Shown here in pieces: positions 34,223-38,609 of a DNA stretch of 39,270 bases (the stretch's first letter is position 1; the number at the start of each line of letters is the position of its first letter). The stretch comes from an uncultured Alphaproteobacteria bacterium (lineage in GTDB: Bacteria > Pseudomonadota > Alphaproteobacteria > Rs-D84): assembly GCA_944390225.1 (NCBI GenBank), contig CALXPB010000001.1, positions 149,196 to 188,465 of the forward strand. The letters are read 5' to 3'. The notes below the pieces were generated by a model. That model saw only the letters and a list, made by a program, of their open reading frames with translations. It had not been told where the DNA came from and made no database searches. The position numbers and the translations under genes were made by a program.

Positions 34223-36016
34223 CTAGTTCTCCTTTTTGTAAACTTCGGAACATTTGGGAGGCGTTTCGTTTTCAAGGTATAGGAAAATATCTATATAACG
34301 ATCGTTTGCTTTTTCTTCTGGCGATGTACCTTTTGCCATACTATCACCCATAGGACAAATACTAATATTGTCTTCTATAAATAGGTTTGCAGAATTCTGA
34401 ATAAGATATTCTTTCGTTACGGTTGCGCGTTTTTCGGATAAATTATCGTTATTACAGATTCCATTGCTTGTGCAAAGTGTTGAAGTCTGTCTAATCTGAT
34501 CTTTATCTGTATGTGATGCTAAGATAAATTTAAAGTTTTCTTCTTCGGCTAATTGTTCTTTTATTTTCGATATAATTTCGTCTAATACAGTTTCTCCGCC
34601 TTTGGTTATTTCTATTCCTCCGCTATCAAATAAACTTGCTGAATATATTGTAAGAATAGAATTATCTTGTTGTTGTTGTTGTTGTTGTTGTTCTTCTTCT
34701 TCTTCTTCTTCTTCTTGGGGGGCGGGCGTCTTGTCGTTTTCTGTTGTGGCTGCTGTTTGTGCGTCTTGTTCGGATCTGGTTTCTATAGAACTCAGATCTT
34801 CACGAATTTGTTGGCGCTTTGCATCGTATTTTGCAATAATTTCTTTTGAAAGTTCTTTCGGTTTATTATCGTTTATAAATTTATTTATCGCTGTACTGGC
34901 GACTGCGGTTGTTACCATTGTTATGATACCGTTCTTTATCTGCTGAGAAGTTTTTTCTTTTTGCTCTGCCCATTCTGCCGCATCTGCACTGGTAGAATCA
35001 GACAAGGCCTTGGCCAGTGATGTAAATGTTCCGTTTCTTCCCGTCCCGACATCGTCGTATAAATTTATAACCGATGTATCAATGATTACTTCTGATTCTA
35101 TTCCTTGTGCCAACCCCAGAGATTCTTTTCTTGTTTTCAAATCTTCTGCCAGATTCATGTACTCGTTGTATAATGTAGACAGTTGTCCTGCGCCTGGTAA
35201 TTCTACATTTGTCTGTCCGCCTTTGATAAATTTACCTTGTCCGAAATCGCATCTGAAAGTAGCCAGATAAGCAGTCATATCCTGTTCAGCCTGTTGGTCT
35301 GCGCGTTGTTCTGATAAAGCGGATAGAGTTTGCATACCAGCAATTCCCATAGCGCCCATAGAAGCCCCCGACAGTAATTTATTTTCTGTAGATTGTTCTT
35401 TTTCTTTCATAGCATCGGCATTAGACTTTAATTCTGCAATTTTTGCTTTTTGATCTTCTTCTGACAAAGTCAGCTGTGGTTCTGACTCTAAACCGCCCGT
35501 GTCTGTCGGTGGCGGTAAATCTTCTGTTGTCGGCGCTTCATTGTTTTCTGTTGGCGGTTCTTGTTCGGTTGTTGATTGATTGTCAGATGTCTCTGTGGAG
35601 GATTTTTTGGGAATTTTTTCTGCGGTTACTTCAACTGCGTCTAACATTGTGCTATCTTCTTGTAATGAAATTGTTTGGTTATCACTGTTTACAAAATCTG
35701 AGACAGGTATAGTTTTAGTTTCATATCCAACAAAAGAAATTTTTATAGATGCATCGCTAGGGACTTTTTCCAAAGTGAATTTACCATTAATGTCTGATGC
35801 GGTACCGGTCGAAGTGCCATTCCCATTGGCATCCAATACTTGGATATTCGCACCAGGGAGTGTTTCGTTTGTGTCGGCGTCTACGTCTACTATTGTGCCA
35901 GAAATAGTAACGGTCTCTGTATTGGTATTTTGACTGTTTTCGGTTGCTGAGGTTCCTTCTGCCAATGTTGGCAGGGCGATTAATATGGAAAAAATTACAA
36001 TTAATATCTTTTTCAT
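34223..36016 (-). CDS. Chimeric exported protein: CarboxypepD_reg-like domain plus OmpA-like C-terminus
   Basis: 597 aa. Signal peptide MKKILIVIFSILIALPTLA. Residues about 36-120 are a CarboxypepD_reg-like beta-sandwich of the SusC type (SGTIVDVDADTNETLPGANI; GKFTLEKVPSDASIKISFVG) followed by LDAVEVTAEK, like the start of SusC-type TonB receptors, but no plug or barrel follows. Then a Pro/Thr/Glu linker, a glycine zipper (SGASMGAMGIAG), a helical region, an E8Q8 run, and an OmpA-like domain with the peptidoglycan-binding pattern NDNLSEKRATVTKEYL and HTDKD. It probably anchors an envelope assembly to the wall. Its ATG overlaps the stop of the upstream gene (ATGA), so translation is probably coupled. 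Bacteroidota-style domain suggests transfer or shuffling. Confidence 0.82.
   Translation of the reverse strand: MKKILIVIFSILIALPTLAEGTSATENSQNTNTETVTISGTIVDVDADTNETLPGANIQVLDANGNGTSTGTASDINGKFTLEKVPSDASIKISFVGYETKTIPVSDFVNSDNQTISLQEDSTMLDAVEVTAEKIPKKSSTETSDNQSTTEQEPPTENNEAPTTEDLPPPTDTGGLESEPQLTLSEEDQKAKIAELKSNADAMKEKEQSTENKLLSGASMGAMGIAGMQTLSALSEQRADQQAEQDMTAYLATFRCDFGQGKFIKGGQTNVELPGAGQLSTLYNEYMNLAEDLKTRKESLGLAQGIESEVIIDTSVINLYDDVGTGRNGTFTSLAKALSDSTSADAAEWAEQKEKTSQQIKNGIITMVTTAVASTAINKFINDNKPKELSKEIIAKYDAKRQQIREDLSSIETRSEQDAQTAATTENDKTPAPQEEEEEEEEQQQQQQQQDNSILTIYSASLFDSGGIEITKGGETVLDEIISKIKEQLAEEENFKFILASHTDKDQIRQTSTLCTSNGICNNDNLSEKRATVTKEYLIQNSANLFIEDNISICPMGDSMAKGTSPEEKANDRYIDIFLYLENETPPKCSEVYKKEN
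34667..34714 (-). repeat. Trinucleotide tracts (GAA)8(CAA)8
   Basis: On the coding strand eight GAA then eight CAA codons, giving Glu8-Gln8 between the helical region and the OmpA-like domain. Slippage by whole triplets would change linker length in frame. Confidence 0.85.
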
Positions 36017-37602
36017 TCTGTTTGTTCAACCTTTTGTAATATACTGCTTTGTATCTCTGTTCTGGAATAGCCTGAATCCACACCGCTCCCCCCAGCGCGA
36101 AGGCTATTCGTCCCCCCCCCCGTATCTCCTGATGTTTTTGCGTTTGCTGTATTAGTTGTGTTTGTACTAATAGTGTTTAAAATATTGTCAGGAATATCAA
36201 ATTGTATTGAGTTTATTTCGCCTTCTTGTCTAAGTGAAGCACTAATTTGTTGCCCGTTGTTGTTTGATGGGTTTCCTGTACTAATTTGCTCTTCTGATGT
36301 TGAATTCTGTGTTTTATCGTTTTCCTGTTTTTCGGTGGTATCACTTGAAGTTGATTCACTCTCTTTCTCGGCGTCTTTCAGGGCATTGGATGCTTTTTTC
36401 GTATCTATCGCACGACCTATGGCACCAGATGTAACCGCACCAACAGCTGTCCCAAGACCCGCACCTAGTAACGCAGATGTAGCAGACGTTTGTTCGCGCG
36501 TAGCCCTGTACGCATTTTCCATGAATGTAGTTATGTCTATCCCAAACCAGTCCGGAGTGCAATTAAATGTTCCACCAGCATAACCCTTCTTGGATGCAAA
36601 TAATGTCAAATCGTCCCCCGCATAAAATTCTATTGTGTATACGCAACTGAACGTCCTTTCGTCAAACATTGCACCTAACATTTCGCATTGGTTTGACATT
36701 AAATCTCGTAATTCATATAAACGCGCTTCATCTTTGCTGACCTGAATCTCGGCATCTTGACGAAGTTCACTGAAAACTGTCATTACACGACCAGATAAAC
36801 CACTGTCTTGTTCTTTGCAGTTGTCCGCAATCGTTTTGCACGCCCGTATCGCATCGTCCCCAGCGGTTTTCCCAAGACATTTGCTGAAATTTGAACCGCA
36901 CTGCGCCAATATGCAGTCGTTGTACCTGGTACCGCAGTCAATAATTGAGTTATAAGATTTTAAACGAGCGTTCATGTCCCTGTCGGATTTTATCTCGGCC
37001 GCAAAAGCACTGAATTCTTCGCCTGTGCATTCTGTATCCCGTCGGCAAGAATCCATCTTGTTCCCCCATGATGTATCTGTGTCTCCACTGCAATCTGTAA
37101 AATCGTCACCACATTTGTTTTGCATACATTTACGCAAATCTAAATCACAAGTGTTATTCCCCTGCTGAAAGTAATTAGTTGTCAAATTTAAAGAATCTTG
37201 CGTGTCAAGCGCTGCACGTTGCTGACGTATAAGTGCTTCAAGTTCAGAACTGGATGTGTCCTCGCCCGTTGACGCACCATAAGAATTCAAAACTATGTCA
37301 AACTGCGAAGTTTTATTCTCTATAATTATTTGGTCTTCGGTTTCTTCTTCAATGGGTTCTGGATTTTCGGGCTCTGAAGTATCGTCGCCTTGATTGCTGT
37401 CGGCAGAAGAAACTATCACAGGCGCAGTTGATACAAAGTTCGTCCGTGCCGCCGTCGTCGGTCTGTTCGCAGCAGATACCGTACCGCCAGTCGTTGTTGT
37501 CGTTGTTGTGTATGTGTTTGTGCGCTGAACAACGGCACCATCTGATGATGCACAATACATAGTAAACATTACCATACATATTATACGACCGATTCTCCGC
37601 AT
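36013..37602 (-). CDS. Exported Cys-rich protein with glycine zipper and G10 tract, 529 aa
   Basis: Start at 37602 (MRRIGRIICMVMFTMYCASSDGA) because it gives a compact signal peptide. An earlier in-frame ATG at 37650 and an open frame to 37827 exist, and no start has a good SD, so this is uncertain. After a Thr-rich stretch come two Cys modules, CDLDLRKCMQNKCGDDFTDC and CGTRYNDCILAQCGSNFSKC, both fitting C-x6-C-x4-CGx[DN]FxxC. GTFNCTPDWFGIDI precedes the zipper SALLGAGLGTAVGAVTSG. A Ser/Thr/Asn-rich tail contains a G10 tract (36112-36121). The TGA overlaps the ATG of the OmpA-like gene. Family not recognised. Confidence 0.72.
   Translation of the reverse strand: MRRIGRIICMVMFTMYCASSDGAVVQRTNTYTTTTTTTGGTVSAANRPTTAARTNFVSTAPVIVSSADSNQGDDTSEPENPEPIEEETEDQIIIENKTSQFDIVLNSYGASTGEDTSSSELEALIRQQRAALDTQDSLNLTTNYFQQGNNTCDLDLRKCMQNKCGDDFTDCSGDTDTSWGNKMDSCRRDTECTGEEFSAFAAEIKSDRDMNARLKSYNSIIDCGTRYNDCILAQCGSNFSKCLGKTAGDDAIRACKTIADNCKEQDSGLSGRVMTVFSELRQDAEIQVSKDEARLYELRDLMSNQCEMLGAMFDERTFSCVYTIEFYAGDDLTLFASKKGYAGGTFNCTPDWFGIDITTFMENAYRATREQTSATSALLGAGLGTAVGAVTSGAIGRAIDTKKASNALKDAEKESESTSSDTTEKQENDKTQNSTSEEQISTGNPSNNNGQQISASLRQEGEINSIQFDIPDNILNTISTNTTNTANAKTSGDTGGGTNSLRAGGSGVDSGYSRTEIQSSILQKVEQTE
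36112..36121 (-). repeat. G10 homopolymer in coding sequence
   Basis: Ten G on the coding strand (ten C on the plus strand), coding for Thr-Gly-Gly-Gly. Striking in AT-rich DNA. Loss of one G opens a different frame running to 35787; gain of one G gives a TAG two codons beyond the tract. Confidence 0.9.
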
Positions 37603-37736: not shown

Positions 37737-38609
37737 TCAGTTCCCCCTTGTGTCTATCAACTCGCACGCAGTCTGATAAAATTTGCACAAGTTTTCGGCA
37801 GACTTTAATTCGGAATTTTGTGCACATTTGTTAGGCATGTTCATTTCACATATTGTTTGCTTGCATGCCTCAAACGCTATGTCGTCTGTACATGATATCT
37901 GCACACTGGATAATTTGTTGGCGCGCGCAGTTTGATACGCAGAAACAATGTTTTGTATCATCTTCTCGGTGTTCGCAATGACCATGTCCCTGTCGGACAT
38001 TAATGTTTGTTTTATGGCTGATAGATAATCGTTACAACCTGTGGCCTCGACACTGCATTCGGAAAAGAATTTGTTGAATTCCGAATCGGTTTTGCATCCG
38101 CTGAAATCAGAACCACACCTTTTTTCATCCACTATGCATGTCTGAATGTCTGTACTGCATGATGCAGAACTTACCGGTTTCGATGCCGCAGAACGCAGTT
38201 CAGTCATCTTTGCACTGATGCCGGCCGCTTTACAAGATTGCTCTATCAGGCTGTCATAAATGTCGGATACGTCTTCTGCCGTGCAACCATTGACCTTTTT
38301 TATACACTCGGTAGTCGCCCAGATATAACGTTTGCCAGGATCAGTAGGCGCGTCTTCCAATTCTTTCTCGCTTAATGTATATTGCACAGATTGACCAATC
38401 GAAAGACTGCGCATCTTGTTCGCAGTCGAAGGCGTACCAGCACTGGCCGTGCCACAGTACTGACAGCGAGCCGCAGGATTAGAAGATACGTTTATCGCAC
38501 AAACCGAATCAAGACACCGCCTCAAATTAGCCTGTGAACATGTCGCAGCAGTCGAAATACTTGGGATTATTTGTAACCCCAATATAAAAAATATGGCTTT
38601 TTTGTTCAT
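37737..38609 (-). CDS. Exported Cys-rich protein, 290 aa
   Basis: Signal peptide MNKKAIFFILGLQIIPSISTA. The mature protein starts with CSQANLRRCLDSVCAINVSS then ARCQYC, which matches the N-terminal module of the 944-aa protein (CMDSFC, GGRCIC). A second module CSTDIQTCIVDEKRCGSDFS-GC fits C-x6-C-x6-CGxDFxxC. About 20 Cys in all, so it is likely stabilised by disulfides after export. It is the first gene of the minus-strand operon with the 529- and 597-aa proteins. GAGAG SD and an extended -10 promoter. Function unknown. Confidence 0.78.
   Translation of the reverse strand: MNKKAIFFILGLQIIPSISTAATCSQANLRRCLDSVCAINVSSNPAARCQYCGTASAGTPSTANKMRSLSIGQSVQYTLSEKELEDAPTDPGKRYIWATTECIKKVNGCTAEDVSDIYDSLIEQSCKAAGISAKMTELRSAASKPVSSASCSTDIQTCIVDEKRCGSDFSGCKTDSEFNKFFSECSVEATGCNDYLSAIKQTLMSDRDMVIANTEKMIQNIVSAYQTARANKLSSVQISCTDDIAFEACKQTICEMNMPNKCAQNSELKSAENLCKFYQTACELIDTRGN

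Follow-up and report, generated by a model that had tools for sequence, protein, structure and literature searches.

A tract of ten G residues near the 3' end of a gene for a secreted-type protein in a Candidatus Enterousia genome is quite likely a contingency tract for C-terminal phase variation, in which slipped-strand events leave the tail of the protein either kept or truncated, and it probably serves as a genetic on/off switch for that tail, as judged from comparison of sequences across the genus. The tract lies in a window of 39,270 nt, the whole stretch of DNA that was analysed, and the first-pass annotation had put it forward as a candidate phase-variation switch. This proposal gained in weight from orthologous genes, in which similar tracts recur and are confined to the tail, coding-like tails are found out of frame, and relatives differ by one G. 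The source lineage, Candidatus Enterousia (Alphaproteobacteria), has genomes of about 0.9 Mb and has been characterised as a gut genus with reduced genomes in the order Rs-D84 (PMC12306168). The features of the region are collected in Table 1.

Table 1. Features around the G10 tract, with positions counted in the window
Feature	Position	Strand	Description
Upstream gene, Cys-rich secreted-type protein	37737..38609	-	No Pfam family above cut-off
Host gene	36013..37602	-	Signal peptide, Cys-rich conserved domain, glycine zipper, variable tail
Conserved Cys-rich domain, approximate extent	36373..37326	-	No run of at least seven G in 145 of 145 orthologs
Hypervariable C-terminal tail, G10 frame	36016..36372	-	About 119 aa; 32 residues after the tract
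G10 tract	36112..36121	-	Encodes Gly-Gly-Gly in the present frame, context TSGDT-GGG-TNSLRAGG
Stop codon for G11 or G8	36104..36106	-	Tail truncated two codons past the tract
Second shorter run, G6	36088..36093	-	18 nt past the G10 tract, same tail
ATGA overlap	36013..36016	-	Host TGA stop (G10 frame) and downstream ATG start
Stop codon for G9 or G12	35787..35789	-	Within the downstream gene; preceding reading not coding-like
Downstream gene	34223..36016	-	Signal peptide, CarboxypepD_reg-like domain, C-terminal OmpA domain

The reading frame of the host gene is open from an ATG at 37827, but its 5' stretch overlaps the upstream gene, and the signal peptide and the orthologs make 37602 the probable start. 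Besides a likely signal peptide, the encoded protein contains a Cys-rich domain in which many positions are invariant, together with a glycine zipper and a hydrophilic tail. No Pfam family scored above its cut-off for this protein, the AlphaFold model of the conserved domain was weak (mean pLDDT 64), and no PDB match was found below an E value of 3. Signal peptides, the cysteines and the neighbouring OmpA-like gene suggest a surface location. The conserved domain is present in 147 of the 156 genomes of the genus and also occurs in other genera of the family. Across 145 orthologs from the genus, almost all from single MAGs with one per species, the tail is highly variable in length (22–747 aa, median 138). 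Several tails (those of L003, L007, L008, L011, L030 and others) are modular, some with repeats that are rich in Cys and recall EGF-like units, and domains 94–96% identical can bear unrelated tails in sister species.

On the minus strand the region reads GATAC-GGGGGGGGGG-ACGAATAG, with the G10 tract at 36121..36112, some 100 nt ahead of the host gene's stop. It is the only run of G or C longer than six in the window and the only G10 run in the 938,982-bp assembly, the genome-wide tract statistics being pattern searches. A change in its length alters the C-terminus alone and leaves the conserved domain upstream intact. In the G10 state the frame closes with a TGA at 36013-36015, inside the ATGA at 36013-36016; in the G9 and G12 states it runs on to 35787, which makes 108 codons after the tract with the stop counted; and in the G11 and G8 states a stop follows two codons past the tract and ends at 36104. 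The placement of the tract near the 3' end of the gene, all its coordinates and the three ends that the first-pass annotation had derived for the present length, one G less and one G more were reproduced. Its statement that each state changes the protein end is literally correct, but the G9 end does not look like coding sequence: the log-likelihood ratio is -32.9 over 107 codons, against +8.4 for the G10 frame, so that the states are better read as tail kept versus tail lost. The coding-like character of the G10 state is consistent with the ATGA overlap. A G9 read-through product acting as a selected fusion or alternative tail was rejected, since that reading is not coding-like.

Sense-strand runs of at least seven G occur 21 times in the tails of the 145 orthologs, in 19 genomes, and 20 of them have at least eight (one G7, eleven G8, six G9, two G10 and one G11). 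These 21 runs fall in 71 kb of tail sequence versus none in 153 kb of conserved domain (Fisher p ~4e-11). The genes that carry them represent about 16 lineages by domain identity, and close sisters of tract carriers are often tract-free; no species close enough for a comparison of the window's own tract was found among its relatives. The tails of nine orthologs from other genera of the family hold no long sense-strand G run, and one of them has a C8.

Behind most tracts the present frame carries a long, coding-like tail. Five tracts are out of frame, with a stop within three codons and a coding signal in another frame; the log-likelihood ratio of the shifted frame is +66 in genome G010 (G10), +36 in G091 (G8), +33 in G095 (G9), +11 in G099 (G8) and +13 at the second tract of G074 (G9). 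The sister genome G062, whose domain is 85% identical to that of G010, has the tail in frame and without a tract. Read in the shifted frame, the G010 tail shares 78 of 111 residues with it, at dN 0.17 and dS 0.60 and with an excess at third positions, and measured against this in-frame sister the comparison shows a signature of purifying selection on the shifted-frame tail. In another case a homologous tract is G8 and in frame in G119 and G9 and out of frame in G074, a different species, with flanks identical for at least 36 nt before and more than 70 nt after it. The results for both pairs are what slipped-strand mispairing predicts and are hard to obtain from neutral drift. Both in-frame and out-of-frame states exist in nature, between species, as seen in the five orthologs and in the G8/G9 pair. 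A comparison of isolates or MAGs had been suggested at the outset as a check on the switch, and across species it lent the idea support, with tract lengths of 7–11 and the one-G difference between G119 and G074. The out-of-frame copies could be consensus errors or recently broken genes in single MAGs.

With the coding frame of each tract as reference, 17 of the 21 tracts run into a stop within two codons when one G is added, compared with 28% at control Gly codons (p 7e-7); part of this bias may reflect frequent Gly-Ser and Gly-Glu codons behind the run (GGT AGY, GGT GAA). The loss of one G gives variable readings that are mostly not coding-like, the -1 frames of in-frame loci scoring mostly negative. 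The stop bias and the poor -1 frames together indicate a switch between tail kept and tail lost, not a choice between two functional tails.

In the proposed mechanism, the G10 tract would be hypermutable and would make the tail at the C-terminus of this conserved, Cys-rich and secreted protein switchable, with slipped-strand mispairing during replication adding or removing one G. At G10 (or G7 or G13) the whole tail would be made and translation would end on the start of the OmpA-like gene. At G11 or G8 translation would halt two codons past the tract, the last ~30 residues would be lost and the ribosomes would leave 87 nt before the downstream start, while at G9 or G12 a non-selected frame would be read deep into the next gene. 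Switching is presumed to be reversible within one population; its selective benefit might lie, for instance, in antigen or phage-receptor variation, with the protein presumably exposed at the surface and the downstream gene possibly affected.

The downstream gene had been called OmpA-like, a designation upheld by a Pfam OmpA match just above the cut-off (27.7 bits against 27.2) and joined by a CarboxypepD_reg-like domain (CarbopepD_reg_2, 58.0 against 32.2). A secreted-type gene lies closely downstream in about half of the orthologs, and genes resembling that of the window follow 68 of the 99 orthologs having a nearby downstream ORF. The next start overlaps the stop or lies at most 30 nt away in 71 of 137 orthologs, and the downstream ATG of the window is preceded by a weak AAGG, farther off than ribosome-binding sites usually lie. 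That the downstream gene is coupled to the tract is plausible, but the exact ATGA overlap is uncommon among orthologs (10 of 137). Coupling would plausibly be lost in the G11 state, whose stop lies well upstream of that start. One tract could possibly vary two envelope proteins.

A different role for the tracts would be that of a recombination seam, in which Gly-linker DNA rich in G, close to the border of the conserved part, is where new tail modules are installed, slippage being a side effect. In comparisons of sister species, homology is frequently lost at the tract or a little ahead of it and regained downstream; the end of homology and the tract lie at 399 and 430 in G028/G139, 404 and 435 in G098/G079, 456 and 496 in G095/G105, and 442 and 487 in G074/G094, and in G128/G094 homology ends with the tract. 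The context TTCGTCAACC-G8 also recurs before different tails (G128, G114, G119 and G074). The G010/G062 and G119/G074 pairs, however, are homologous on both sides of the tract, which argues against a seam as the whole explanation, and most tail exchange has taken place in genes without tracts, which make up 126 of the 145 orthologs. Recombination at a seam needs neither frame-breaking lengths nor the +1 stop bias, and the tracts may just travel within incoming tails, which together leave this explanation unlikely. Comparably doubtful is a two-speed diversification of this near-universal secreted protein, in which poly-G tracts would be repeatedly born near the edge of an exchangeable tail, so that slippage would switch the tail, a seam would install new tail modules, and the adjacent OmpA-like gene would come under knock-on control.

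It is improbable that the tracts have no function and stem from chance or mutation-driven expansion of G in a weakly constrained, Gly-containing tail, or from assembly artefacts. Such an origin would fit the variability of the tails, the lack of a tract in most orthologs, the runs of at least eight G that also occur in housekeeping-like genes and between genes of the genus, and the poly-G artefacts present in the data set, where contig G059:C1 begins with G19. The frequency of the runs speaks against it: with the tail proteins kept and synonymous codons drawn from the tails' own usage (300 shuffles of the 145 tails), 0.37 runs of at least eight G are expected and the maximum was 3, compared with 20 observed. 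Of the Gly codons, GGG is used least in the tails, no C runs occur in the 145 tails, and the length spectrum is gapped, with one G7 and eleven G8, which a decay by chance would not give. Genome-wide, G8 was found at 701 positions on either strand in 59 genomes, a density per base and strand about seventy-fold below that of the tails (taking ~0.88 Mb per genome), and 131 kb of loci around another large Cys-rich family contain no run of at least seven G. The shifted G010 tail still appears to be under selection, and the tract of the window lies 3.1 kb from the contig end.

Slippage of RNA polymerase or the ribosome on the G run, G runs being known slippage sites in general, would let a single DNA sequence give full-length and truncated tails in a constant ratio with no mutation and is very improbable. 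An out-of-frame gene such as that of G010 could then still yield some of the complete protein, and this would account for the selection on its tail, but the DNA lengths differ between the homologous tracts of G119 and G074, and tract lengths span 7 to 11, which DNA slippage would lead one to expect.

The best-known cases of simple-repeat phase variation come from cultured pathogens among the epsilon-, beta- and gammaproteobacteria. Classic homopolymeric tracts sit close to the 5' end or in the promoter, and it is the whole protein that is lost. In contrast to these tracts of Neisseria and Campylobacter, those of Enterousia would leave the conserved domain always made and the tail alone conditional. 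The likeness to surface-protein phase variation in the two genera consists in a repeat within the coding region whose length switches the frame between in-frame and out-of-frame states (PMC5084427, PMC3068675). Among described mechanisms the nearest is the phase variation of C-termini that poly-G tracts bring about in Helicobacter canadensis (Snyder et al. 2010, PMC2823697), and the case in the window would work alike, to judge from the comparison of species. Both involve an AT-rich genome of a gut-associated bacterium and a poly-G tract late in the coding region, where a length change alters the C-terminus alone; a further parallel is one possible fusion of a gene to the next gene in H. canadensis (PMC2823697). 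H. canadensis differs in that the affected genes, eight in a single strain, for the most part encode enzymes or flagellar components, their ends mostly change by a few residues, and length variation was seen in reads, whereas in Enterousia the evidence is the comparison of species and concerns one secreted Cys-rich family across the genus, with 17 to 290 tail residues at stake. No report of phase variation in Enterousia was found in the literature searched, most subscription journals being outside its coverage. The mechanism is of a known kind; the protein family, the lineage and the genus-wide recurrence appear to be new. A recurrent comparative signal of this sort in an uncultured gut alphaproteobacterial genus would point to strong diversifying pressure on one secreted protein, be it from host immunity, phage or competitors, and would provide a well-replicated natural case of phase variation that is C-terminal, not whole-gene.

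Tracts of at least nine G as a general mark of phase-variable genes in these genomes were rejected, many of them lying outside genes or in housekeeping-like genes. That the property is common to another Cys-rich multicopy family was likewise rejected as a rule, 30 of its loci being without runs of at least seven G. A second large Cys-rich family (~800 aa) was found in 115 of the 115 Enterousia genomes searched, mostly with 7 to 11 matches per genome, which is a large share for genomes of 0.9 Mb; its loci in the genome of the window include G000:C3:51670-53169 and G000:C11:22884-23654, and two members listed (L298, G097:C1; L045, G021:C1) have G8 and G11 runs. In a third family, represented by a 47% identical pair (L294, G004:C7:56849; L297, G095:C13:39561), one genome has an in-frame G12 and the other a G10 that runs straight into a stop; this may be another switchable gene. 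The contig that starts with G19 (L057, G059:C1:1-100) has further G runs there, and the poly-G at this contig end probably arose as an artefact of sequencing. Two G8 runs elsewhere in the genome of the window (L081, G000:C8:32997-33004; L068, G000:C2:12493-12500) are in frame, one of the genes being RecR-like and the other having a prepilin-like N-terminus.
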